A DNA stretch of 64,000 bases from Acidobacteriota bacterium (GTDB lineage: Bacteria > Acidobacteriota > Thermoanaerobaculia > Multivoradales > SZUA-115). The notes beneath the pieces were generated by a model, which was not told the origin of the DNA, made no database searches, and was given only the letters and a program-made list of their open reading frames with translations. The DNA lies in NCBI GenBank assembly GCA_024277255.1, contig JAJRVQ010000024.1:1-64000 (forward strand), written 5' to 3'. The position numbers were made by a program, and so were the translations under genes. This document shows, piece by piece, positions 42,740 to 64,000 of the stretch. Position 1 is the first letter of the stretch; the number at the start of each line of letters is the position of its first letter.

Positions 42740-44269
42740 TCAGCGCGCTGCTTGCGTGCCGCGCTCGAATAGTTGAAGGACCGCGACCAGCGAACGCGGC
42801 GCCGCGGGACAATTCCACCATCTCTCTTGCCCGGCCGCCAGCTTTCTCGATCGCTCCTCGGTGCCGTCTGCGGCGGCGATGAGAACCGTCGTGTCCGGCC
42901 CCGGTCCCTGAGTCAGCCGTGCGAGGATCCGTGGTACGGCGGTTCCCCCGTCATCGCGACTCAACCAGATTCCCACGCCATGGCACAAGGGGAGAATGGA
43001 CTCGACCCGCGGTTGCACCGATGGGTTGAGCAGCTGAACGACGACCGATAGCGTTCCCTGAGGGCGACGCACGGTGGTGCTACCTCCGCCGCCGCGTTCG
43101 AGCTGCCGCGCCAAGGAAAACCACACCGAATTGCCGTTGCCGCTCGGAGCGGTGGCGAAGAGCTTGACCAGAGAGTCCCAGGAATCCGCTTCGCCGAGTA
43201 GCAGGAGTCGTAGGGTTCCATCGCGGCCAACATTGGCTGAACTCAGCAGGCCGTCGACGGCAAGGTCGAGAAGAAGGCCGGCGTCGATCTCCATCGTCGT
43301 GGGCTGATAGGAGGCCATGTCCTCGACCCTGGCCACGGCCCCGGCCTCGAGCAGCAAGAGCACCGAGAGCTCGATCCTCTGCGGGGCCAGATCCATCGTG
43401 CGGCACATGGTGGCCAGCGTCGCCCCGGGTTGATCGCGAATCCTCTCAAAAACCTCCTCGATGGGCAGACCGCGAACCGGTCCTCCCAACGGGGGAACCA
43501 CGGTCAATAGGGCACGCAGTTGCGTCCGCCGATCGGGTAGGAAGGGCTGGCGCGCCCGCAGTTCGTCGCGCAACCAGGCCGCTTCCATCAGCAAAGTCTT
43601 GACATCCGGCCCGTCCTCCGGCGGCTCGGCCAGATCGGTGGTGGCAGGAACGAAGCGAAAGTGTCCCGCTTCCAGCCGCAGCATGGCGATGATCGCTTCG
43701 CCTCGGCGCAGAGTTCCGTAGCGGGCCTCCGTCAGCCGCCCGGAACTCAGCGTGAGATCGGCCGGTTTCTTGCGTGAGGCGAGAGTCAGGCGACCGCTCT
43801 TGTCCCCTTGGTGGAGGAACTGAAGCAGCTCCCAAAAAGGATAACAGGAGAGATCCCCTTCGAGCAGCGAGCGACCGGGGGATCGCGTGGAGACCAGCCG
43901 GCTCAGGGTCAGAGCCAGCTCCTCGGGGTCGTATGGCTTGATCAAGTAATGGTTGGCGCCCTCGCGCAACGCGCGCACCCCTTCTCGCGCTACCTTTCCG
44001 GCCACGGCGCTGCTCGTCTCGCCTTCCAGCAGCATCATGATCGGCAGCGCCTCGGTGCGGGAATCTCGACGCAGCTCACCGAGAATGGCGAAAGCGGATT
44101 GCGCTGGGCTGGTGGCCACCAGCACGGCATCCGCGTGCTCCTCCATGGCGCGATCCGCTACCTGGAGAGAGCTGTCGTGTAATACAGCGACGAACCCTTC
44201 GCTGCGCAACTGATCGACGGTCAAGATCCCTGAGACTGCGTCGCTATCGACAACCAGCACTTTGGACAA
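42740..44269 (-). CDS. Receiver-like / DUF4388 / degenerate GTPase-like protein
   Basis: A 509-residue cytoplasmic protein. Residues 1-128 have a CheY-type fold (SKVLVVDSDAVSG, and LIKPYDPEEL with the conserved Lys111), but the phosphoacceptor Asp is Ala52 (VLVATSP). Residues 134-207 are a DUF4388 (PATAN) domain: LLEGDLSCYPFWELLQFL, then RYGTLRRGEAI. A helical/winged part follows (269-313), and the C-terminal 150 residues resemble a Ras/MglA-like GTPase that has lost its P-loop (LRLLLLGEADSWDS). I chose the TTG at 44269, which gives MSKVLVVD with AGAGG eight nt upstream. It is probably a scaffold in signalling or polarity; inference. Confidence 0.72.
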   Translation of the reverse strand: MSKVLVVDSDAVSGILTVDQLRSEGFVAVLHDSSLQVADRAMEEHADAVLVATSPAQSAFAILGELRRDSRTEALPIMMLLEGETSSAVAGKVAREGVRALREGANHYLIKPYDPEELALTLSRLVSTRSPGRSLLEGDLSCYPFWELLQFLHQGDKSGRLTLASRKKPADLTLSSGRLTEARYGTLRRGEAIIAMLRLEAGHFRFVPATTDLAEPPEDGPDVKTLLMEAAWLRDELRARQPFLPDRRTQLRALLTVVPPLGGPVRGLPIEEVFERIRDQPGATLATMCRTMDLAPQRIELSVLLLLEAGAVARVEDMASYQPTTMEIDAGLLLDLAVDGLLSSANVGRDGTLRLLLLGEADSWDSLVKLFATAPSGNGNSVWFSLARQLERGGGGSTTVRRPQGTLSVVVQLLNPSVQPRVESILPLCHGVGIWLSRDDGGTAVPRILARLTQGPGPDTTVLIAAADGTEERSRKLAAGQERWWNCPAAPRSLVAVLQLFERGTQAAR

Positions 44270-44592
44270 GATTACCGACCTCTGTTGTTGGAGTTCGGGC
44301 GATGAAGAGAGAGAGAGTCGCAGTGGATCGGCGTCGCGACGCGGTGCCGCTGGAGAAGGCCCGAGAGGCAAGCGCGAGTATGATCGCGGTGCAAGCCCGC
44401 CCAAGAGAGAAAAAGAACCCTAGAAGAACCGTGACCATTCCACGTTTGAACGCCGATGATACACCGTTCAGTCTCTTCAACAAGCGAGATCGCCGCGATG
44501 CGGCAGGCCGATCCCGAACTCCGGTCGAGAGAGTGCGCTCGCTCGCGCTTCATTTTGGCCACACGCCTCTTCAGCCCGTGAAAGGAACCGCA
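44270..44592. other. Divergent intergenic region
   Basis: 323 nt between two divergent genes. I find no convincing open frame or RNA gene. A 24-nt inverted repeat (TGAACG-N12-CGTTCA, 44447-44470) could be an operator. No clear -35/-10 pair stands out for either gene. Confidence 0.45.
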
Positions 44593-50589: not shown

Positions 50590-51378
50590 CTATTGGTGGT
50601 GGAAGGTCATCACCACCATGCCCAAGCGCACCTCATCACCGTCGCGAATCTCCTGTGGAACACCGGTTTCGAGCCGCTTTCCGTTGGCGAAGGTACCGTT
50701 CATGGTGCCGATCTCTTCGGACAGAAAGTACTTGTCGCCGCGGCGGTAGATCTTGGCGTGACGGCGGCTGATCGAGCGTTGACTGTCCACCGGAGTGACA
50801 TCGATGTCCGGATAGATGCCGGTGACCGGATCCTTGCGCCCCATGGTGGTCTCGGTGGCTCCGGCCAGGTAGAACTCCATCCCTGACTTCTCGTGCACCA
50901 ACCTCTCCGGCCCCACATCCTGCCGCTCGGACGGTGGCTCCGGCGAAGGCATGTCGGGAGAACTGCGGGGAGTTTCGCCGGCGGCGGCCAAGGCCTCGCG
51001 CAGCATATTGTCCGCTTCACGCAACCGGCGGGAGAGCTTGCGCATCATGCGCACCGCAATCTCGGGGTTGTCTTTGAGCATCTGGGCGAAGGTCGCGCTG
51101 TTGATCTGCAACAGCTTCGCATCGGTCACCGCGCGTGCCGATGCGGTGCGCGGCAGGCTCTCGAGCACCGACATCTCGCCGAAGAAATCACCCTTCTCAA
51201 GCAAGGTGAGCATCTTCTCCTGGCCGGCGATCTCCTGCACGATCTCTACTTGCCCCTCGTGCACGATGTACATGTGGCTTCCCAGATCGCCCTCGCGAAA
51301 GACGAACTCCCCCTCTTGCACGGCGATCGATGGATCGCTCCGCGGCTTGCGGGTGGTCTTGAAAACAGGCTTACTCAT
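50590..51378 (-). CDS. Cyclic-nucleotide-binding and FHA domain protein
   Basis: A 262-residue cytoplasmic protein. Residues 15-130 are a cNMP-binding domain (EGDLGSHMYIVHEGQVEIVQ; phosphate-binding cassette FGEMSVLESLPRTASARA with the Arg that contacts the cyclic phosphate). After an Asp/Pro/Ser-rich linker, residues 165-262 form an FHA domain (TTMGRKDP, QRSISRRHAKIYRRGD, GTMNGTFANGKRL), which binds phosphothreonine peptides. No effector domain follows, so it is a possible adaptor between cyclic-nucleotide and Ser/Thr kinase signalling. ATGA overlap with the LD-carboxypeptidase stop couples the two. Confidence 0.92.
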   Translation of the reverse strand: MSKPVFKTTRKPRSDPSIAVQEGEFVFREGDLGSHMYIVHEGQVEIVQEIAGQEKMLTLLEKGDFFGEMSVLESLPRTASARAVTDAKLLQINSATFAQMLKDNPEIAVRMMRKLSRRLREADNMLREALAAAGETPRSSPDMPSPEPPSERQDVGPERLVHEKSGMEFYLAGATETTMGRKDPVTGIYPDIDVTPVDSQRSISRRHAKIYRRGDKYFLSEEIGTMNGTFANGKRLETGVPQEIRDGDEVRLGMVVMTFHHQ

Positions 51379-52831: not shown

Positions 52832-55800
52832 CTAGCCATTGCAATGGATCAACAACCTGGCCAGGGGCATCACACGAGGTTCATAGATGAAACTCGTGTG
52901 GCTGCCGTCAACCCATTTGACTTGAAGGTCGCTGAAATAGGTGGACCAACCCAGTGTTGGCTCCTCGCCCATCTCTCGATGAACCGCTTCGTCACCGGCG
53001 CGAACCAGAAGTGCGTGGAGATCGAGAGGCGTTGGAACGTGTTCGCGCACCGCCCGCATCACTTCCTTGAAGACCAGCCACCGGCGGAGTAACTCCTCGC
53101 CTGAGAAATCGTTACGCCCCTGAGCAGACTGAGCGACAGCCGCAAGGAGGGTCGACAACCGGGTTTCTTCATCCAATTGCTCGAAGTTCGCTGGAAGCAC
53201 CGAGTTGCTTCCCCTGGCCTTCAGGCCAAGAGATCCGACGAAAGCCCGCTGTAACTCGGCGTCGCCCCAGGCCGGCATCCGCGCGGGAGTGAGTGTATCC
53301 AGAAGGACCAGCGACGCCACCCGCTGGCCCTCGGCACGAAGAATGCGGGCCATTTCCACCGCGATCACCCCGCCAACAGACCAACCGAGGATCCGGTAGG
53401 GGCCTTCGGCTTGATGACTTCGCACAGCGGCGACATAGCTGGCGGCCATCTCGACGACCGTTTTCGCGGGTTCGGTGCCGGCCACCAGGCCAGCCGCTTG
53501 CAGCCCAAGGACGGGACTCGCCGGCCCCAGAGCCGCAGCTAGGTCGGCGTAGCAAAGGACCTCTCCGCCCGCCGGGTGGACACAATAGCGAGGAGTTCCG
53601 TCCCCCCGACTCTGTATCTCGACCAGGATTGAACTGCTGGATGGACCACCCGCCTCGGCCGCTACCGCGCGCGCCAGCTCCGCGATGGTGTCGCCTTCGA
53701 ACAGCCGTGCCAGGGGCAAGCTGACACCGGTGCGCTGACGGATCTCCGACATCAGGCGCAAGGCGAGAATCGATTCGCCGCCGAGTTCGAAGAAACTCTC
53801 TTCGACCCCGATTTCCGGGCGCTTGAACAGCGCCGACCAGATCCCCGCCAGTTGCTTCTCCAGTGCGCTGCGGGGCGCGGTGTGGGTAGTCGCCGCGGCC
53901 GCGGGAGCGCAATGGCGCCGCGCCAAAGCACCTCGATCGATCTTCTGACTGGTCGTCCTTGGCATCGCATCGATCTCCACCACCGCCGAAGGCACCATGT
54001 AGTCTGGCAGCCGGCTGGTCAGCCGCCGACGCAAGGCCGCGGATTCAGGCAGCTCTGCGGCAGAGACGACAAAGGCGACCAACCGCGCCCCACCCCCGTC
54101 ACGCACCACGACCACCGCTGCTTCCTCGATCTCCGGCAAAGCCTGGAGAGTCGCCTCGATCTCGCCGAGTTCAATGCGGTATCCTCGAACCTTGACCTGA
54201 TCATCGATTCGACCGAGGAACTCCAGTTGACCGTCGTCGCGCCGGCGGACACGATCCCCGGTCCGGTAGAGGCGGCTCCCAGCTTCCAGAGAAGAGGGAT
54301 CAGGAACGAACCTCTCGGCGGTCAGCGCAGCTCGCGCCATATATCCACGCGCCAGACCGGTGCCCCCCAGGTACAGTTCACCGGGAATCCCGGCCGCCAG
54401 TGGATTGGCGAAACGATCCAAGGCAAAGGCTCGAGCGTTGGCGCGAGGCGCCCCGATGGGTACCTCGCTCCACCGGCCGCCGCCGTAGGTCGGATGTAAA
54501 ACCGGTTTGGTGTCCAAGAGGGCCTGCGTCGCGACCACGGTCGTTTCAGTGGGACCATAGGTGTTGATCAGGCGAACCCGGGGCGGAACAACTTCCATCC
54601 ATTGCACGAGAGTCTCCGCCCGCGCCTTCTCCCCCCCGATGATCACCAACTCGATCGATAGCGGCAAACGCAGCCCCTCGCGTTTCATGGCGACGGTCAG
54701 CTCCCTCCAGTAGGCTGTCGGCAAATCGAGTACGGTCAATGCGTACTGATGGCAGGCGTCCACGAACCGCGCCAAATCCAACATCGCGTCGTCGCGCAAC
54801 ACTAAGGTCCCACCCGCCAGCAGCGCTGGAAAGATCTCCTCGACACTCGTATCGAAGGCGATCGAAGCAAACTGAAGGACGCGGTCCCGGCGGCGAATTG
54901 GCCCGGCCTCGGCCGTGGCTAGAACGAAATCAACCATCGAACGGTGGGTGATCATCACCGCCTTAGGTAGACCGGTAGAGCCTGAGGTGTAAATCAGATA
55001 CGCCAGGTTTTCACTCGACATACGGGGCGCCTCGCGTTGCGCCAAGAATTGGTCACCGGGCGTGCCGAACTCCACACCGAGCTTGTCGAGCGCTATCACC
55101 TCCCGGGGGCCGTCCGGCTTTGCCGGTGAGTCGGAGTCTCGCCAGGTCGAGTCGGTAAGGACTAGTGACGCGCCGGAGTCATCGAGCATGAAACGCAACC
55201 GTTCGGCGGGAAGATCGGGATCAAGCGGAACATAAGCTCCCCCGGCTCGCAAGACGGCAAGTATGGCGGTAATCTGTGAAGTGGAACGACGGGCACGGAT
55301 CGCCACCCTCACTTCGGCGCCGACCCCCTTGCGGCGTAGCAACCGGGCTAAGCGGCCCACTCGCCGATCGAGTTGCCCGTAGGTGATGTGCAGCTCGCCC
55401 TCCACGAGTGCAATCGAGTCCGGCCATTCACTCCAGTTCGCCACGAGCCGCCGCGCCATTCCCAGTTCCGCGCCGTGGAATTCGACTTGTGTCTGGTTGG
55501 AAGCGATGAGCTGCTCGATCTCACTGGACAACATCAGCCGAAGATCTCCGAGCCGATCTTGCGGCTGCTGAGCCATCGAGATCAACACCGTACGCAACGT
55601 GGCGAGCAGCCGAACGGCCAGCGTACTGTCCAGGTAGTGGAGATCGTAGCCGAGGCGAAGGGTCCACGTCTCGGTCCCGGGCATCACCACAACGGTGATC
55701 GGATAGCTGGTGCGTTCGAACCCACCCAGCGCGATCTCCGAAGTCTCTTGGGCGTCGGTTGCCGTGGTCGCCGAAGTTACTTGGGCTGTTGAGGGAGTCT

Positions 55801-58800
55801 TGCGGGCGGCAGCTTTTCTTCTCACCGGTGCGGCGACCGGCGTGGTGGCCGACGGCGCATCGTCGTCAAAGCGAAAGGATAGGTCCGCAGGATAATTCTC
55901 GAAGACGACGAGCGACTCGAAAAGCATCCGGTTGGCCGCCACCTCGCTCCACCCTTGGACTTTCATCAGCGGGCTGTACTCGAACTCGCGAGCCGCTAGC
56001 TGACGATCCTGCAAGCGCTGGATCCACTCGCCGACCTGGGTCTCGGGCTCGACCCGAACGCGCACCGGCAATGTGTTGATGAACAAGCCGAGCATCGTCT
56101 CGATGCCCGGCAAGGGTGCCGATCGACCCGACACGGTAGCACCGAAGAGGACATCTTCTTGGTTGGCGACCCGGCTCAAAACGAGCGCCCACGCCGCCTG
56201 CACGATCGAGTTCTGGGTCACGCGGTAGCGGCTTCCCAGTCGCTGGAGAGCCTCGGCAGATTCCCCCAGCAAGCGGACTTCGACTGCCCCAAAGGACTCT
56301 GGTTGATCCGATCGGTTGATCACGGCGGCTTCAAGAGCTACCGAGGTGGGCTCGCGGAAACCGCTCAATTCACTGCGCCAGAATCTCTCGGCCTTGGCCA
56401 TATCCTGATCGAGATGCCAGGCAACATAGTCGCGGTAGGGCCGCCGTCTTAGTAGGGGCCTCGCCTGGCCCGTCGCGTAGCCTAGGTAGCGCTGGAATAG
56501 TTCGTTGTTGAGGATCGGCAAACTCCATCCATCGAGCAAGATGTGGTGATAGCTCCAAGTAAAGATGTAGGAGTCATCACTTGTGCAGATCAACGCCAGC
56601 CGCATCAAGGGTGGCTGCGACAGATCGAATCCACGCTGACGATCTTCTTCCTGGTGGCGCGCGAACATCTGTCCAAGCTCTTCGCGTGGCGAGGTGCGCC
56701 AGTCGAGGAACTGCCAGGGAACCTCGACCTCCTCGTGGACGATCTGCAACGGTTCGTCGAGATTCTCCCAGTGGAACGAGGTTCGCAGGATCGGATGGGC
56801 GGCGACCATGTCTTTCCACGCCTCGATCAACGCCTCAATTTCTAGCGCCGAATCGAACCGACGGACGCTCTGCTGATGGTATGCATAGGATGTTGGAGCA
56901 TAGATGCGGAAGAAAAGCATTCCCTGCTGGGTGGGCAGTAGAGGATAAATACTTTCGATTCCGCGCCGGCCGGCGACCACTCGTTGTAGCGTCGCCGAGT
57001 CGAGCCGTGCGAGGGGAAAATCGGAAGGGGTATAGCCGCCACTATCGCTCTGGCAGCAGTGAGCGATCAACTGACGCAGCTTGGAACAGATGAGTTCCAG
57101 TAGCCGGCGCGCCGTCTCCTCGCTGTGGGTCGCCTCGCCATAACGAAGCGCGAGATGGAAGTGTCCGCCCTCGATCCGCCCGTCAAACTCCAAGAGATAC
57201 CATCGCTTCCCGCGCGGGCTGTAGCCATTGCCCGCCGGCTCCGGGGCAAAGCTGAAACGGACCGTAGTATCTGCATCGCCCGCCGGAGATACCGTCGCGG
57301 GTGGTGCCGGCGGCGCAACGATGGCCAGCGAATTCGCCGTGGTTGGAGGCGCGCCCACCGATTCGTTCCTCGTGGAGTTGCCGGTTGGTTTCGACTGCGC
57401 CATCCGATCCAACTGGCCCAGGTAGTTGAAGCTGACCTGGGCTGACGGCAACTCGGCAAGCCGCCGCCGCACCGGCTCAGCGGCAAGATAGCGCAATACT
57501 CCAAAGCCCAGCCCCTTACCCGGCACCGAGCGCAGTTGCTCCTTGACGGTCATCAAAGCCTCACCGGGAGAACTCCCTGCGCCAGGGTCGAGAAGGACCG
57601 GGTAGATGCTGGTGAACCAGCCGAGAGTCCGCGAAAGATCGATCTCCTCGAACGGTGCTTCGCGACCGTGACTCTCCAGATCGATCAAGACCGCTCCGCC
57701 GGCCAACTCGCGTAGCGCGCCACTGACCGCGGTCAACAGAACATCGTCGATCCGCGTCCGGTAGGCCCTGGGTACCTCTTCGAGCAAAGCCACGGTCTCC
57801 TCAGCGGAGAGTTTCAAATTGATCAGACGGGTCGTGCTTTGCAGGTTCTCTCCCCCCCGGCCATCCAGCGGAAGCTCGACGGCTCGGCCACGCTCCAGGC
57901 CAGTCCAAAAGCTCACCTCGTGGCGCAGTTGCGAGGAGTCGGTCGCATACTCCACCAGCCGGCGAGCCCAGGATTGGTAGGAACTGCTCTTGGGCGGCAG
58001 AGCGTCCGCCGGCGCCCCATCCTCGGCTCGGCTCGCCTCGTTGGCCATCTCCAGGTAGAGCTTGGGCAGGTCCTCCAGCAAGATCCTCCACGAGACCCCG
58101 TCCATTGCCAGGTGATGCATGACCAGGAGAAGTCGTGCCCCTTGTTGGATTCCTAGGTTGAAGAGGATACAGCGGAAGATCGGTCCCTTTTCGAAGTTTA
58201 GGCTGGCGTGAGTCCGCTCTACCAACCTCCACATCGCCGCACCGCGAGCGGCGTCGGCAAGGGAGGACAAGTCGATGGACAGAAACTCGCCACCGGGGCC
58301 CTGCGGCGCCAGAATCCGTTGTTCCACGCTCCCCGATGCGGTCACCTCGAAGCGACTGCGCAGCACGTCGTGATGAACCATGAGCTTCTCTACCACCCGG
58401 CGCATCACCTGATGGTTGGGAACCGGCCGGGCGGCGAGGAGGAAAGCTTGGTTGAAATGGTGAGGCTCGGCGCGATGCTGCTCGAAGAACCAGTGTTGGA
58501 CAGGAGTCAGCGGTACCGAGCCGACGACCGCGCCCTGCTGTGCAACAACCTCGGTGGCACTACCAGCGACGGCCGCCAGCTCCGCGATCGTATTGTGGGT
58601 GAAGACCTGGCGTGCGGTCAGCTGCAGGCCAGCTCGTGCCGCCAGGGAGACCACCTGCAAACTGAGGATCGAGTCTCCACCGAGTTCAAAGAAGTTGTCA
58701 TGGACGCCGATCTGTTCGCGGCGAAGAACCTGCCGCCAAATAGTGGCGAGCGCTTCCTCCACCTCGTCGCGGGCGGCGACGAAGAGTTCAGCGCTCTCCA

Positions 58801-61800
58801 GCCGTTCCTCCTCCCCCGACGGTAGAGCCTTTCGATCCACCTTGCCATTGGGCGACAGAGGCAGCCGCGGCAGCGGGATGAACAACGATGGCACCATGTA
58901 CTCGGGCAACCGGAGCGCCAGCCGCTCGCGTAACTCTCGTAGTGTTGGCAGTTCCCGATCTTGCTCGGCGACCAGGTAGGCGACCAATCGCTGGCCGTCG
59001 GAACCGTCCTCGCGCACCAGAACCACCGTCTCGTGGATCCCGTCCAGGGCCAAGATAGCCGCCTCGATCTCCCCCAGTTCGATGCGCAGGCCATGGATCT
59101 TGACTTGAAAGTCGATCCGGCTCAGAAACTCCATCGCACCGCCCGGCCAACGGCGAACCAGATCACCGGTCCGATAGAGGCGCGAGCCGGCCTCGCCAAA
59201 GGGGTTGGGAACGAACTTCTCCGCGGTAAGAGCTGGTCGCTTCCAGTAGCCCCGCGCCAGCCCCGTGCCACCGATATGAAGCTCGCCGGGCACGGCGACC
59301 GGCACCGGCTCTCCACGTCCGTCGAGCAGGTGAACCTCTAGGTTGGCGATCGGCTTGCCGATAGGTACCGTCGCCGCCTCGCGGCAAGCCTCGATGCGCT
59401 CTACCGAGGCAGGAGAACCATCACCGAAGCAGGACCACTCGGTGACATCGACGGCAGCTTCGGTCGGGCCATACAGATTGTGCAGTTCGCAGGAGAGACG
59501 CTCCGCGAAGCTCTGCTCCAGATCTCGCGGCAGAGCCTCACCGCTGCAAATCACCCGCCGTAGCGAGGTGCAGGCCGAGAGGTCCGGTTCGGTCAAAAAG
59601 ATGCGCAGCATCGACGGCACGAAATGCAAGGTGGTGACGCCGGTGGAAGCGATCAGATCGACCAGGTAGAGACTATCTTGATGGCCGCCGGGTCGCGCCA
59701 CGACCAGGCGAGCACCCACGGCCAAGGGCCAGAAGAACTCCCAGACCGAGACGTCAAACGAGTACGGAGTCTTCTGCAAGACCACGTCGCTCTCGTCGAG
59801 TGGGTAAGCTTCCTGCATCCAGAGAATCCGGTTGAGGATCGCCGCGTGCGAGTTCATGACCCCTTTGGGCTGGCCGGTGGAACCCGAGGTGTAGATCATG
59901 TAGGCCATGCCCTGCCCCGCCACCGGTAGGTCGAGATTGGCCCCGTCGTAGCGAGCGACCTCGTCCCATTGCGTATCGAGCGCGACTTGGCGGGCCGAGG
60001 TTGCAGGCAACTCGACGAGTAGCTTCGCCTGCGTCAACAGGACGCCGACATCGCCGTCACGCAGCATGAACGCCTGTCGTTCACCAGGGTGCGAGGGATC
60101 GACCGGCAGGTAGGCTCCCCCCGCCTTGAGGATGGCCAACAGGGCGATCACCAACTCCAACGAGCGCTCCGCCGCGACGGCGACCAACGTTTCGCCGCCC
60201 ACCCCAAGCGACCGCAAGTAGCGGGCCAGTTGGTTGGACCGAGTGTTTAGCTCGCCATAGCCAAGCCACTCTCCCGCGAACTCTACCGCCTTGCGCTGCG
60301 GATGGCGCTGGGCCTGCTCCTCGAACAGCTGCACCAAAAAGGGCTCCTGAGGGTAGGCCACAGCGGTCGAGTTCCACTCCACTACCAGCTGCCGTCTCTC
60401 CGCCTCCGGGAGCATTTGAAGGCTGCCGAGGTGAATCTCCTCGCTCTCGCACATCGACTGCAAGAGGGTCGAGAGATGGCCCAGCATGCGCTCGATGGTG
60501 ACCGCGTCAAAGCGGCGTTCGTCGTACATCACACCGAATCGCAAGAGGGAGCCCAAACTCGCCATCAGGGTCAAGCCGAAGTTGGTCTGCTCGAAATTAT
60601 CGACCTCGGCAACGCTGAAGCCACCGCTGCTGCGCTCGACCGCTTGCTTGCGCACCGTGGAGTCGACCGGGTAGTTCTCAAACACCACGATGCTGTCGAA
60701 GAGCGGCGTGCCACCTGGAAGATCACTCCACCCCTGCACTTCGCTCAAGGAGCTAAACTCGTATTGCCGCATCTCGGCTTGGGCGACCTGGAGGGCTCCC
60801 AACCAGCTGCCCAGCTCGCTGTCGTCGGCGGTCTCGACCCGCGACGGAAGGGTGTTGATGAAGAGGCCGACCATCGACTCCACTTGATCAAGATCCGCCG
60901 GGCGACCGCTAACGGTGACCCCAAAGAGCACATCGGTGGTAGCGCTGTAGCGGGCTAGCAGAATCGCCCAAGCTCCTTGAACCAGTGTGTTGGCGGTCAG
61001 CCTTTGGCGCTGTGCGCTGGCTTTCAGCCTCTCGGTCTGAGCTAGCCCCAGCACTTGCCGACTCTCCACTGGAGCCACCTCGCCGCCGCTACCGTCCGCC
61101 CACTTCGGTCTATCCACCACCAGTGAAGTCGGAGCGTCGAGACCACCGAGAACACGCCGCCAATACGCGCGCGCGGCGTCCGCGTCCTGCTCGGACAACC
61201 ACCGGATGTAGTCCCTGTAGGGTCGAACCGCCGGCAATACAGCGACCTCGTTGTTGAGTTGAGCTTGGTAGAAAGCGAAGACCTCCTTGTACACCAGGTG
61301 CATGCACCAACCGTCGAGGAGCAAATGATGATGGCTCCAGATCACCCGGTAGCGCTCCTCGGCGAAGCGCATGACGCGCAGCCGCATCAGCGGCGCCTTG
61401 GACGGATCAAAGCCAGCTCGTCGATCCGCGGCGAGAAAGGCGGCCAGGTGCGCCAGCTGCCGCTCGCTGCTCAGACCGCGTAGATCCTCCTCGGCAAATG
61501 GCACTTCCACCGTCTCCAGAACCACCTGGAGCGGAGTCTTGACGCGCCGCCACTCAAACTGTGTGCGCAGGACGGCATGTCGATGCGCCACCTGTTGCCA
61601 CGCCCTTTGGAAGGCACCCACATCGAGCGGCCCGTCGAAGGCGCAGGCCAATTGCATGTGATACGCCCCAGCGGTTGGCGCGAAGACGGCGTGAAAGAGA
61701 ATGCCATGCTGCAAAGGTGCCAACGGATAGAGATCGGCCATGCCGTCGTGGTGACGCGACAGCTCGTCGAGCACCGCTTGGTCGAGGCCGGCCAGCGGAA

Positions 61801-64000
61801 AGTCCGACGGGGTGAAGCCTCCCACTGCCGGCTGGCGGCAGTGCTGCACCAGTGCTTCGATCGCCCGTTTCAAGGCGGTACCGAGCCGCTCGATGGTTGA
61901 ACGCTGATGCAGATTGCGGCTGTAGAGTAGATTGAGCTGGAGACAACCAGCCTCCACCAGGCCGACCACATCGAGCACATGGCGACGCAGCGCGCGCGGG
62001 CTGATCGGGGGGCCGGTGTTCTCGGGGGCTCGATGCACTCGGACCGCCGGCAGCGCAGCGTCGTCTCCCTTGGCCGTCGCTGTGGTCGACTGCCGCCCAA
62101 ACTGACCTAGATAGTTGAAGCTGATTTCCGGATGGCGCAAGGCGCCCAGCCGGCGCGACACCTCCGGGTCCGGCGAGAGATAGCGCAGGATGCCGAAGCC
62201 GACGCCGTTGTGAGGCACGGCCCGCAGCTGTTCTTTGATCGTCTTGAGTTCTTCGCCCGGCCCGTCGGTCGCCGCAAGGTCGAGGAGAAGCGGAAAGACG
62301 CTGGTAAACCAACCCACGGTGCGCGACAGGTCTACGTCGTCTAGGATCGATTCCCGGCCGTGCCCTTCCAGATTGATCAGTACGTTCGACTCGCCCGTCC
62401 AGTCGGAGCAAGCGCGGGCCAGGGCGGCAAGAAGAGCATCGTTGATCTGGGTGTGATATTTGGGTGGCACCTCGTGCAACAGGGCCCGCGTGGTCTCGGC
62501 GTCCAGCCGTACAGCCACGACCCCGGCCGATTCTTCGGTGTTCTCCCCTCCCTGATAGTCGACCGGCAAGGCCGCCACCGACGACTGCTGCTGAATCCAG
62601 TACTCAAGCTCGCGGCGTAGCCGCTGCGAACCGGCGTAGTGGGAGAGACGTTGTGACCAGCGTTGTACCGAAGTGGTCTTGGCCGGCAGCTCCAACTCTT
62701 CGGCCAAGGGGATAGAGCTACCGGGTGGTCGCTTCGCCAGTTGAGTCGCAAGCTGCTGCAGATCGCTTTGCAGGATGCGCCAAGAAACACTGTCAATAGC
62801 GAGATGGTGCACCACCCAGAGCAGCCGAGTCGAGCGTTCATGGCCGAGGGTGACATGGAGGATCCTCAACAAGGGGCCGGCGATCGGGTCGAGCGATGCT
62901 TGAACTCGCGTCGCTAGCTGCTGCAGGGCCAGGCTATGCAGCCGCTCATCGAGACGCGAAAGATCGAGCTGTGCGAAGGGCAATCTCTTGCCGGTCAAAG
63001 CGCTCACCGGCTCCAGGTACTGGTGCCACCTCTTGGGTCCTTCTCCTTGCTGCTGATACGAGAACCGCAGGCGCAACGCGTCGTGGGCCGCCAGCAGGCG
63101 ATAAACCATGACGCGAACAGCACCGGCCTTCAGAGCAGGGGTCAGCAGCAGATAGTGTGCCTGGTTGTAGTGGTGGAGATCGACCGGATCGGCCTCGAGG
63201 AACCAGTGCTGAATGGGCGTTAACTTAACCGGCCCCACCACCTCCCCCTGCTGGGCCTGAATGCGCTCCAGCGAACCGGCAACCGCCGCCAGTTCCGCGA
63301 CGGTCTGGAATTGAAAGATCTGCCGAGGTACCAGTGTCAAACCGGCGCTGTTGGCTCGGGCGACAATTTGCAGTCCCATGATCGAGTCGCCCCCCAGGTC
63401 GAAGAAGTTGTCGTCCCTTCCGACTCGCTCAACCCCGATCACATCGCCCCAGATTTCAGCCAGCAGCCTCTCGGACGGCGTCTGGGTAGTGCTGTAGTTC
63501 TCCGCCGTGGTACCCCGCGACCGCCCCGGCGCCGGCAAGGCGCGCCGGTCGACCTTGCCGTTGACAGTGAGTGGCAGACAACTCAAAGGAACCACGACCG
63601 CGGGCACCATGTAGTCCGGAAGAGTCGAGGAAAGACGCTCGCGGACTTGGCGCAGCGACAACTCGGATTCCCCCTCAACCATCACCAAATAGGCCACCAA
63701 GCGGTTCCCGCCAGAGCCGTCTTGGCGCACCATCACCACCGCCTCTCGAACACCCGGTAGGGCCACCAAAGCGGCCTCGATCTCACCGAGTTCGATGCGA
63801 AAACCCCGAACTTTGACCTGGTTGTCGATTCGCCCCAGGTAAGACAGCTGCCCGGTTGCGATGTAGCGCGCCAGGTCGCCGGAACGGTAGAGCCTCTCTC
63901 CCGGTACGTCGGTGAAGGGATCGGGCACGAAGCGCTCAGCGGTCAGCGAGGGCCGTGCCTGGTAGCCGCGCGCCAACCCGGGGCCACCGATCCACATCTC
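52832..64000 (-). CDS. Nonribosomal peptide synthetase, C-terminal part: (A)-T-E / C-A-T-E / C-A-T-TE
   Basis: About 3,720 codons remain open to the window edge; the true start lies outside. Counting from the Met at 63997: partial A domain (1-160, LGRIDNQVKVRGFRIELGEI), T1 (Ser205 in LGGDSI), E1 (256-720; HHLAIDS, EGHGRES, RTVGWFTSVFP), C1 (750-1190; HHLLLDG), A2 (1210-1730), T2 (Ser1776), E2 (1828-2315), C2 (2335-2830; HHILLDG), A3 (2840-3360), T3 (Ser3409), TE (3455-3721; Ser3540 in GWSVGG, Asp3567, His3700). The A2 specificity residues read DVWHISLVDK, near-identical to serine-activating codes. A3 reads DTEDIGTVVK, which I cannot assign. The product should include D-configured residues at two positions and D-Ser. 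Confidence 0.93.
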   Translation of the reverse strand, partial: EMWIGGPGLARGYQARPSLTAERFVPDPFTDVPGERLYRSGDLARYIATGQLSYLGRIDNQVKVRGFRIELGEIEAALVALPGVREAVVMVRQDGSGGNRLVAYLVMVEGESELSLRQVRERLSSTLPDYMVPAVVVPLSCLPLTVNGKVDRRALPAPGRSRGTTAENYSTTQTPSERLLAEIWGDVIGVERVGRDDNFFDLGGDSIMGLQIVARANSAGLTLVPRQIFQFQTVAELAAVAGSLERIQAQQGEVVGPVKLTPIQHWFLEADPVDLHHYNQAHYLLLTPALKAGAVRVMVYRLLAAHDALRLRFSYQQQGEGPKRWHQYLEPVSALTGKRLPFAQLDLSRLDERLHSLALQQLATRVQASLDPIAGPLLRILHVTLGHERSTRLLWVVHHLAIDSVSWRILQSDLQQLATQLAKRPPGSSIPLAEELELPAKTTSVQRWSQRLSHYAGSQRLRRELEYWIQQQSSVAALPVDYQGGENTEESAGVVAVRLDAETTRALLHEVPPKYHTQINDALLAALARACSDWTGESNVLINLEGHGRESILDDVDLSRTVGWFTSVFPLLLDLAATDGPGEELKTIKEQLRAVPHNGVGFGILRYLSPDPEVSRRLGALRHPEISFNYLGQFGRQSTTATAKGDDAALPAVRVHRAPENTGPPISPRALRRHVLDVVGLVEAGCLQLNLLYSRNLHQRSTIERLGTALKRAIEALVQHCRQPAVGGFTPSDFPLAGLDQAVLDELSRHHDGMADLYPLAPLQHGILFHAVFAPTAGAYHMQLACAFDGPLDVGAFQRAWQQVAHRHAVLRTQFEWRRVKTPLQVVLETVEVPFAEEDLRGLSSERQLAHLAAFLAADRRAGFDPSKAPLMRLRVMRFAEERYRVIWSHHHLLLDGWCMHLVYKEVFAFYQAQLNNEVAVLPAVRPYRDYIRWLSEQDADAARAYWRRVLGGLDAPTSLVVDRPKWADGSGGEVAPVESRQVLGLAQTERLKASAQRQRLTANTLVQGAWAILLARYSATTDVLFGVTVSGRPADLDQVESMVGLFINTLPSRVETADDSELGSWLGALQVAQAEMRQYEFSSLSEVQGWSDLPGGTPLFDSIVVFENYPVDSTVRKQAVERSSGGFSVAEVDNFEQTNFGLTLMASLGSLLRFGVMYDERRFDAVTIERMLGHLSTLLQSMCESEEIHLGSLQMLPEAERRQLVVEWNSTAVAYPQEPFLVQLFEEQAQRHPQRKAVEFAGEWLGYGELNTRSNQLARYLRSLGVGGETLVAVAAERSLELVIALLAILKAGGAYLPVDPSHPGERQAFMLRDGDVGVLLTQAKLLVELPATSARQVALDTQWDEVARYDGANLDLPVAGQGMAYMIYTSGSTGQPKGVMNSHAAILNRILWMQEAYPLDESDVVLQKTPYSFDVSVWEFFWPLAVGARLVVARPGGHQDSLYLVDLIASTGVTTLHFVPSMLRIFLTEPDLSACTSLRRVICSGEALPRDLEQSFAERLSCELHNLYGPTEAAVDVTEWSCFGDGSPASVERIEACREAATVPIGKPIANLEVHLLDGRGEPVPVAVPGELHIGGTGLARGYWKRPALTAEKFVPNPFGEAGSRLYRTGDLVRRWPGGAMEFLSRIDFQVKIHGLRIELGEIEAAILALDGIHETVVLVREDGSDGQRLVAYLVAEQDRELPTLRELRERLALRLPEYMVPSLFIPLPRLPLSPNGKVDRKALPSGEEERLESAELFVAARDEVEEALATIWRQVLRREQIGVHDNFFELGGDSILSLQVVSLAARAGLQLTARQVFTHNTIAELAAVAGSATEVVAQQGAVVGSVPLTPVQHWFFEQHRAEPHHFNQAFLLAARPVPNHQVMRRVVEKLMVHHDVLRSRFEVTASGSVEQRILAPQGPGGEFLSIDLSSLADAARGAAMWRLVERTHASLNFEKGPIFRCILFNLGIQQGARLLLVMHHLAMDGVSWRILLEDLPKLYLEMANEASRAEDGAPADALPPKSSSYQSWARRLVEYATDSSQLRHEVSFWTGLERGRAVELPLDGRGGENLQSTTRLINLKLSAEETVALLEEVPRAYRTRIDDVLLTAVSGALRELAGGAVLIDLESHGREAPFEEIDLSRTLGWFTSIYPVLLDPGAGSSPGEALMTVKEQLRSVPGKGLGFGVLRYLAAEPVRRRLAELPSAQVSFNYLGQLDRMAQSKPTGNSTRNESVGAPPTTANSLAIVAPPAPPATVSPAGDADTTVRFSFAPEPAGNGYSPRGKRWYLLEFDGRIEGGHFHLALRYGEATHSEETARRLLELICSKLRQLIAHCCQSDSGGYTPSDFPLARLDSATLQRVVAGRRGIESIYPLLPTQQGMLFFRIYAPTSYAYHQQSVRRFDSALEIEALIEAWKDMVAAHPILRTSFHWENLDEPLQIVHEEVEVPWQFLDWRTSPREELGQMFARHQEEDRQRGFDLSQPPLMRLALICTSDDSYIFTWSYHHILLDGWSLPILNNELFQRYLGYATGQARPLLRRRPYRDYVAWHLDQDMAKAERFWRSELSGFREPTSVALEAAVINRSDQPESFGAVEVRLLGESAEALQRLGSRYRVTQNSIVQAAWALVLSRVANQEDVLFGATVSGRSAPLPGIETMLGLFINTLPVRVRVEPETQVGEWIQRLQDRQLAAREFEYSPLMKVQGWSEVAANRMLFESLVVFENYPADLSFRFDDDAPSATTPVAAPVRRKAAARKTPSTAQVTSATTATDAQETSEIALGGFERTSYPITVVVMPGTETWTLRLGYDLHYLDSTLAVRLLATLRTVLISMAQQPQDRLGDLRLMLSSEIEQLIASNQTQVEFHGAELGMARRLVANWSEWPDSIALVEGELHITYGQLDRRVGRLARLLRRKGVGAEVRVAIRARRSTSQITAILAVLRAGGAYVPLDPDLPAERLRFMLDDSGASLVLTDSTWRDSDSPAKPDGPREVIALDKLGVEFGTPGDQFLAQREAPRMSSENLAYLIYTSGSTGLPKAVMITHRSMVDFVLATAEAGPIRRRDRVLQFASIAFDTSVEEIFPALLAGGTLVLRDDAMLDLARFVDACHQYALTVLDLPTAYWRELTVAMKREGLRLPLSIELVIIGGEKARAETLVQWMEVVPPRVRLINTYGPTETTVVATQALLDTKPVLHPTYGGGRWSEVPIGAPRANARAFALDRFANPLAAGIPGELYLGGTGLARGYMARAALTAERFVPDPSSLEAGSRLYRTGDRVRRRDDGQLEFLGRIDDQVKVRGYRIELGEIEATLQALPEIEEAAVVVVRDGGGARLVAFVVSAAELPESAALRRRLTSRLPDYMVPSAVVEIDAMPRTTSQKIDRGALARRHCAPAAAATTHTAPRSALEKQLAGIWSALFKRPEIGVEESFFELGGESILALRLMSEIRQRTGVSLPLARLFEGDTIAELARAVAAEAGGPSSSSILVEIQSRGDGTPRYCVHPAGGEVLCYADLAAALGPASPVLGLQAAGLVAGTEPAKTVVEMAASYVAAVRSHQAEGPYRILGWSVGGVIAVEMARILRAEGQRVASLVLLDTLTPARMPAWGDAELQRAFVGSLGLKARGSNSVLPANFEQLDEETRLSTLLAAVAQSAQGRNDFSGEELLRRWLVFKEVMRAVREHVPTPLDLHALLVRAGDEAVHREMGEEPTLGWSTYFSDLQVKWVDGSHTSFIYEPRVMPLARLLIHCNG
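52836..52847. repeat. 12-bp perfect palindrome at the NRPS/rnpB junction
   Basis: CCATTGCAATGG overlaps the last NRPS codons, about 25-36 nt upstream of the rnpB 5' end. The rnpB promoter must lie in this area, with TTGCAA and TATCCT (14 nt apart, too short for a good sigma70 match) as the only hint. Confidence 0.45.

Follow-up and report, generated by a model that had tools for sequence, protein, structure and literature searches.

The window, a stretch of 64,000 nucleotides in all, belongs to a metagenome-assembled genome (MAG) that is rated 8% contaminated and whose named relatives are Acidobacteriota. On its minus strand lies a gene (Table 1) whose frame has no internal stops and whose TTG at 44269 co-aligns with the ATG and GTG starts of homologues; the plus strand of 42740-44269 is stop-rich. 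This minus-strand open reading frame is real. Its product consists, in order, of a receiver, a PATAN domain (DUF4388), a winged-helix-like region and an alpha/beta tail. A VWA/TPR gene flanks it on one side and a beta-propeller amidohydrolase gene on the other, and a genome of the same genus carries a copy that is 66% identical and has the same neighbours. Elsewhere on the minus strand, the window encodes a 3721-residue nonribosomal peptide synthetase with condensation, AMP-binding, carrier and thioesterase domains (52832-63997) and an FHA domain fused to a cyclic-nucleotide-binding domain (50590-51378).

Table 1. Features of the gene and their positions in the window
Feature	Position	Strand	Basis
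Whole gene, 509 aa, TTG start	42740..44269	-	Open frame; start matches homologue starts
Shine-Dalgarno-like AGAGG, nine bases upstream of TTG	44279..44283	-	Read from sequence
Aspartate-less pseudo-receiver, residues 1-128	43886..44269	-	Pfam, PDB, Foldseek, alignment
Ala52, position of the phosphoacceptor Asp	44114..44116	-	Alignment with LDVMMP homologues
PATAN (DUF4388, PF14332), residues 137-237	43559..43861	-	Pfam E 9.8e-15; whole-genome search, same span
Winged-helix-like region, residues about 265-316	43322..43477	-	Model, assigned by inspection
G-domain-like tail, residues 345-508	42746..43237	-	AlphaFold model, Foldseek
GEADSWDS at the P-loop place, after first tail strand, residues 359-366	43172..43195	-	Alignment, motif scan

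Receiver, PATAN domain and winged-helix-like region

The receiver is recognizable by several approaches, although its Pfam score is below threshold (Response_reg at residues 4-119, 24.3 bits against a cut-off of 30.2). Its sequence matches in the PDB are the receivers of PhoB, CheY and FrzS, and among its best Foldseek matches to solved structures are FrzS (2i6f) and the D53A mutant of PhoB. The original prediction of a receiver without its aspartate, with Ala52 at the phosphoacceptor position, is borne out by the homologue alignment, in which the loop following Ala52 is also one residue shorter than in Asp-bearing homologues. In the same alignment the position of the second metal-binding acid is occupied by Ser9 and that of the conserved Ser/Thr by Leu81. 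More specifically, three of the five receiver catalytic residues are gone; because Asp8 and Lys111 remain, the further claim that all catalytic sites had disappeared does not hold. A pseudo-receiver has been defined as a receiver without at least one of the DD, D, T and K residues, and as aspartate-less (ALR) where the D is absent (PMC12632262). By this definition, the window receiver is an aspartate-less pseudo-receiver.

The second domain is assigned with more ease, scoring 55 bits against the DUF4388 cut-off of 25 in Pfam. DUF4388 (PF14332) is the same domain as PATAN. The description of the protein as triply degenerate was mistaken on this point, since PATAN is a non-enzymatic module, is not degenerate and scores well.

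Following PATAN, the AlphaFold model places three helices and a strand (270-279, 285-291, 296-308 and 312-315) with a pLDDT of about 90, a region for which no Pfam match was found. This helix-helix-helix-strand arrangement, predicted with high pLDDT across 270-315, could suggest that the protein is a phosphorylation-independent transcription regulator, in which DNA would be bound by the winged-helix-like region and the tail would serve for regulation or dimerisation. Among the characterised atypical response regulators, several are transcription factors, e.g. ChxR and BldM. However, the protein has no DNA-binding Pfam match, the PATAN regulators studied to date bind the pilus motor, and the winged-helix-like region sits between two interaction-type domains, all of which make a DNA-binding role unlikely.

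Predicted fold of the C-terminal tail

The full-length AlphaFold model was built from nine sequences and has a mean pLDDT of 81 and a pTM of 0.41; the arrangement of the domains is therefore uncertain, though the domains themselves are credible. Within the tail, the model predicts the element order b1 a1 (a) b2 b3 a2 b4 a3 b5 a4 b6 a5. The first half comprises strands at 352-359, 395-402 and 405-413 and helices at 361-372, 381-393 and 416-428, and the second half strands at 431-436, 461-466 and 484-487 and helices at 444-454, 471-478 and 494-508. As modelled, this is the element order of a G domain with one extra helix at the place of switch I. The von Willebrand A fold was also considered because its element order resembles that of the tail; by inspection, the second strand of the hairpin (405-413) is the more hydrophobic one, which probably suits a G domain better than a von Willebrand A fold.

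Against solved structures, the 50 listed Foldseek matches of the whole model look like receivers or receiver-containing proteins, whereas against viral models receiver-type proteins come first and are followed by many Ras, Rab, ypt1 and AIG1 entries, some of which may themselves stem from the receiver because the table gives no query range. A model of the tail only, made with no alignment, reached a pLDDT of 37 and drew Rab and Ras proteins first, none of them below an E of 0.08, and was therefore used as a hint only.

Comparisons by sequence are less favourable. The tail has no Pfam match and no sequence match in the PDB. When aligned with 31 MglA-like GTPases using hhalign, it scored below 2% probability, no better than controls, and seven of 60 column shuffles scored as high. 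The b2-b3-a2-b4 segment falls in the expected register, but this is non-significant against shuffled and unrelated profiles. Since sequence and profile comparisons give no support for GTPase homology, the tail is named here G-domain-like, and its descent is left open. The Ras/MglA order originally proposed thus stands as regards the predicted succession of elements and the Ras and Rab matches, while a link to MglA is unproven in Pfam, PDB-sequence and hhalign comparisons.

The nucleotide-binding motifs are a separate question. VLIAAADG overlaps the predicted strand 461-466 and lies at the G4 place, where NKxD should be, as had been proposed. A motif scan of the window tail finds no GxxxxGK[ST], in agreement with the claim that GEADSWDS stands in its place; the scan finds neither this motif nor [NT]KxD in any of the 30 homologue tails, a lone GxxxxGKT in one homologue (L040) being a chance match in its PATAN part. 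The P-loop was therefore not lost in the window protein. All homologues are without it, among them the 20 whose receiver bears the Asp; its absence therefore characterises the family rather than reflecting decay of the window gene, and predates the absence of the receiver Asp. Beside the P-loop place, 23 of 30 homologues have Trp at position 364.

These results may also be read as those of an alpha/beta interaction domain of independent origin, whose element order coincides with that of the G domain by chance. The lack of a Pfam or PDB-sequence match, the hhalign scores at control level, the absence of the P-loop throughout the family, and the single residue that separates strand 1 from helix 1 in the model, leaving no room for a P-loop, all favour this explanation. 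Against it stand the predicted G-domain-like order including the b2-b3 hairpin, the many viral Ras-, Rab- and ypt1-type matches that follow the receiver-type proteins, and the Rab and Ras matches drawn first by the low-confidence tail-only model. Chance resemblance is the less probable of the two, and the tail probably keeps a small-GTPase shape, as judged from the models. If the domain were of independent origin, pseudoGTPase would be a misnomer for it, yet a role as an adaptor could still hold.

Homologues, selection and the DegV neighbour

Searches for relatives yielded about 30 full-length homologues, and the named records are Acidobacteriota MAGs, including one Holophagales and one Thermoanaerobaculum record. 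Of 149 genomes in the class, 23 contain the tail, and in a phylum sample of 396 genomes the seven that possess it are all from the window's class. By these counts, the tail is restricted to this one class. At the phosphoacceptor position, 20 of the 30 homologues have Asp and ten are without it. On a tree built without the receiver columns, the Asp-less members all lie inside one 14-member clade (support 95/93). The Asp state requires a minimum of three changes, or six if only losses are allowed, because an Asp-bearing second gene (in L038) is nested in the clade.

The missing residues, three of five in the receiver, together with the contamination rating of the MAG, could indicate that the gene is decaying or that assembly or contamination has introduced an error. 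However, the copy in the same-genus genome is 66% identical and sits among the same neighbours, the frame is uninterrupted, and dN/dS is far below 1 overall, in the receiver and in the tail. Compared with the same-genus copy, dN/dS is about 0.21 for the receiver and likewise for the tail, with synonymous sites near saturation; this estimate covers the receiver and the tail, the other two domains not being estimable. A second pair of homologues (L033 and L035) gives 0.04-0.05 for receiver and tail both, while a tandem pair (L038) is more relaxed (0.46 overall). The window gene is under purifying selection and, by dN/dS, functional. The missing Asp is not due to chance or an assembly error, because it is shared by the same-genus copy and the family counts about 30 full-length homologues. 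Homologues with an intact receiver do exist, an observation named in advance as damaging to the original prediction if combined with assembly errors, but here the same-genus copy shows the same loss, and selection acts on the gene. The dN/dS values and the same-genus copy led to the rejection of a pseudogene or assembly artefact, and decay or error of any kind is now highly improbable.

In eight loci of the 14-member clade (L032, L034, L037, L038, L039, L040, L042 and L044), a gene for a pseudo-receiver-PATAN-DegV protein lies directly downstream on the same strand. These loci include both Asp-less and Asp-bearing members, and the readable DegV partner proteins are also without the receiver Asp. 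The DegV domain of the partner is complete, and all of 11 further complete DegV proteins from the order (L147-L157) have the same pseudo-receiver-PATAN front end. In another locus (L041:4947-8033), a 1028-residue fusion joins receiver-PATAN to PATAN-DegV and is without the G-like tail. Beside two homologues (L041:8025-9977 and L042:5128-7116) there are also genes whose products resemble Ser/Thr kinases with a sensor-like N-terminal part.

DegV was detected in 18 of 58 genomes but in neither the window's genome nor its two family members; judging from gene content, the window's genus has lost DegV. The Dak2 domain of the kinase FakA was detected in none of the 58 genomes, though control genomes were positive, so that the pairing of DegV with FakA known as fatty acid kinase was not found for the DegV neighbour. 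The partner probably binds lipids, and DegV in this order most likely no longer belongs to the fatty acid kinase system and has been repurposed as a sensor.

Proposed role and comparison with known systems

Taken together, the protein is read here as an atypical response regulator (aspartate-less receiver, PATAN, winged-helix-like region and G-domain-like tail) that would act as a docking adaptor independent of phosphorylation and nucleotide, a reading that we infer with a probability of roughly 0.5. The adaptor would be constitutive, requiring neither phosphorylation nor GTP. Its front half, pseudo-receiver and PATAN, would dock to PATAN partners, e.g. pilus-motor or MglA/MglB polarity proteins, and the tail, which would undergo no nucleotide cycle, would expose a fixed G-domain surface towards either a GTPase partner or the DegV protein. 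The input of the ancestral two-gene system would come from the binding of lipid to DegV; since the window's genus appears to have lost DegV and kept the adaptor, the latter would now have to serve a DegV-independent partner. Strong conservation fits the scaffold pseudoenzyme originally suggested, of which the scaffold role itself is inferred.

Candidate partners are available. Published work reports that PATAN regulators bind PilB, the pilus extension motor (PMC10519157; PMC7690835), and some mglA and mglB genes have PATAN genes nearby (PMC4316618). Genes for T2SSE/PilB-type ATPases are present in the window's genome, as are real MglA-like GTPases, one of whose genes adjoins a roadblock gene (on C51) and another of which is long and has intact motifs. 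An MglA-like GTPase of 533 residues (L070:1288-2889) carries, besides an intact P-loop and NKRD, a long tail of unassigned type. The closest homologues of this GTPase (E below 1e-30) were found only in families carrying the G-like-tailed PATAN protein or its relatives. Counter to the adaptor reading, the window gene is not beside motility, polarity or DegV genes, and the relation of its tail to GTPases comes from predicted structure only.

A broader and decidedly speculative version, less probable even than a DNA-binding role, would make this a class-unique, kinase-free, GTP-free and lipid-linked module of two proteins that share a PATAN front end. One would carry a dead G domain, in which the conserved Trp motif took the place of the nucleotide pocket at an early stage and which would serve a live MglA-type GTPase as a fixed decoy or partner surface; the other would carry a fatty-acid-binding DegV no longer tied to the fatty acid kinase system.

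The way in which pseudo-receivers are turned on and off has been stated as an open question (PMC12632262). The present family may be of use in this respect as a natural series in which the tail stays constant and members with and without the Asp share one tree, and the probable lipid-binding partner in the same operon is a candidate input in place of phosphate.

Several known systems share parts of this architecture. FrzS of Myxococcus xanthus (2gkg, 2i6f) has a receiver that is likewise without critical phosphorylation residues and that serves protein docking in the MglA-SgmX pathway (PMC11580455; PMC12632262); FrzS has a coiled coil where the window protein has PATAN and the G-like tail instead. 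MglA and other prokaryotic Ras-type GTPases have the strand and helix order predicted for the window tail, which differs from them in having no P-loop, NKxD or detectable sequence similarity. The pseudoGTPase domains of eukaryotic p190RhoGAP and CENP-M (PMC10211241) are non-GTPase G folds within larger signalling or scaffold proteins, as is predicted here, whereas the window tail is bacterial, is attached to a response regulator and has a fold that is predicted only. A literature search of limited scope turned up no bacterial response regulator with a G-domain-like tail devoid of nucleotide motifs. DegV/FakB fatty-acid-binding proteins share the full DegV domain with the partner gene of the related loci, where DegV instead follows a pseudo-receiver-PATAN front end and a Dak2 kinase domain of the FakA type was not detected. 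The closest comparison is with the PATAN response regulators (PatA, PixG, PixE, LsiR and their kin), which have receiver and PATAN in common with the window protein. It departs from them in that its receiver is N-terminal, aspartate-less and hence not phosphorylatable at Asp, that a winged-helix-like region and a G-like tail are added, and that it is found in Acidobacteriota. The finding is a class-specific variant of these regulators, for which related genomes hold an unexpected partner, DegV.
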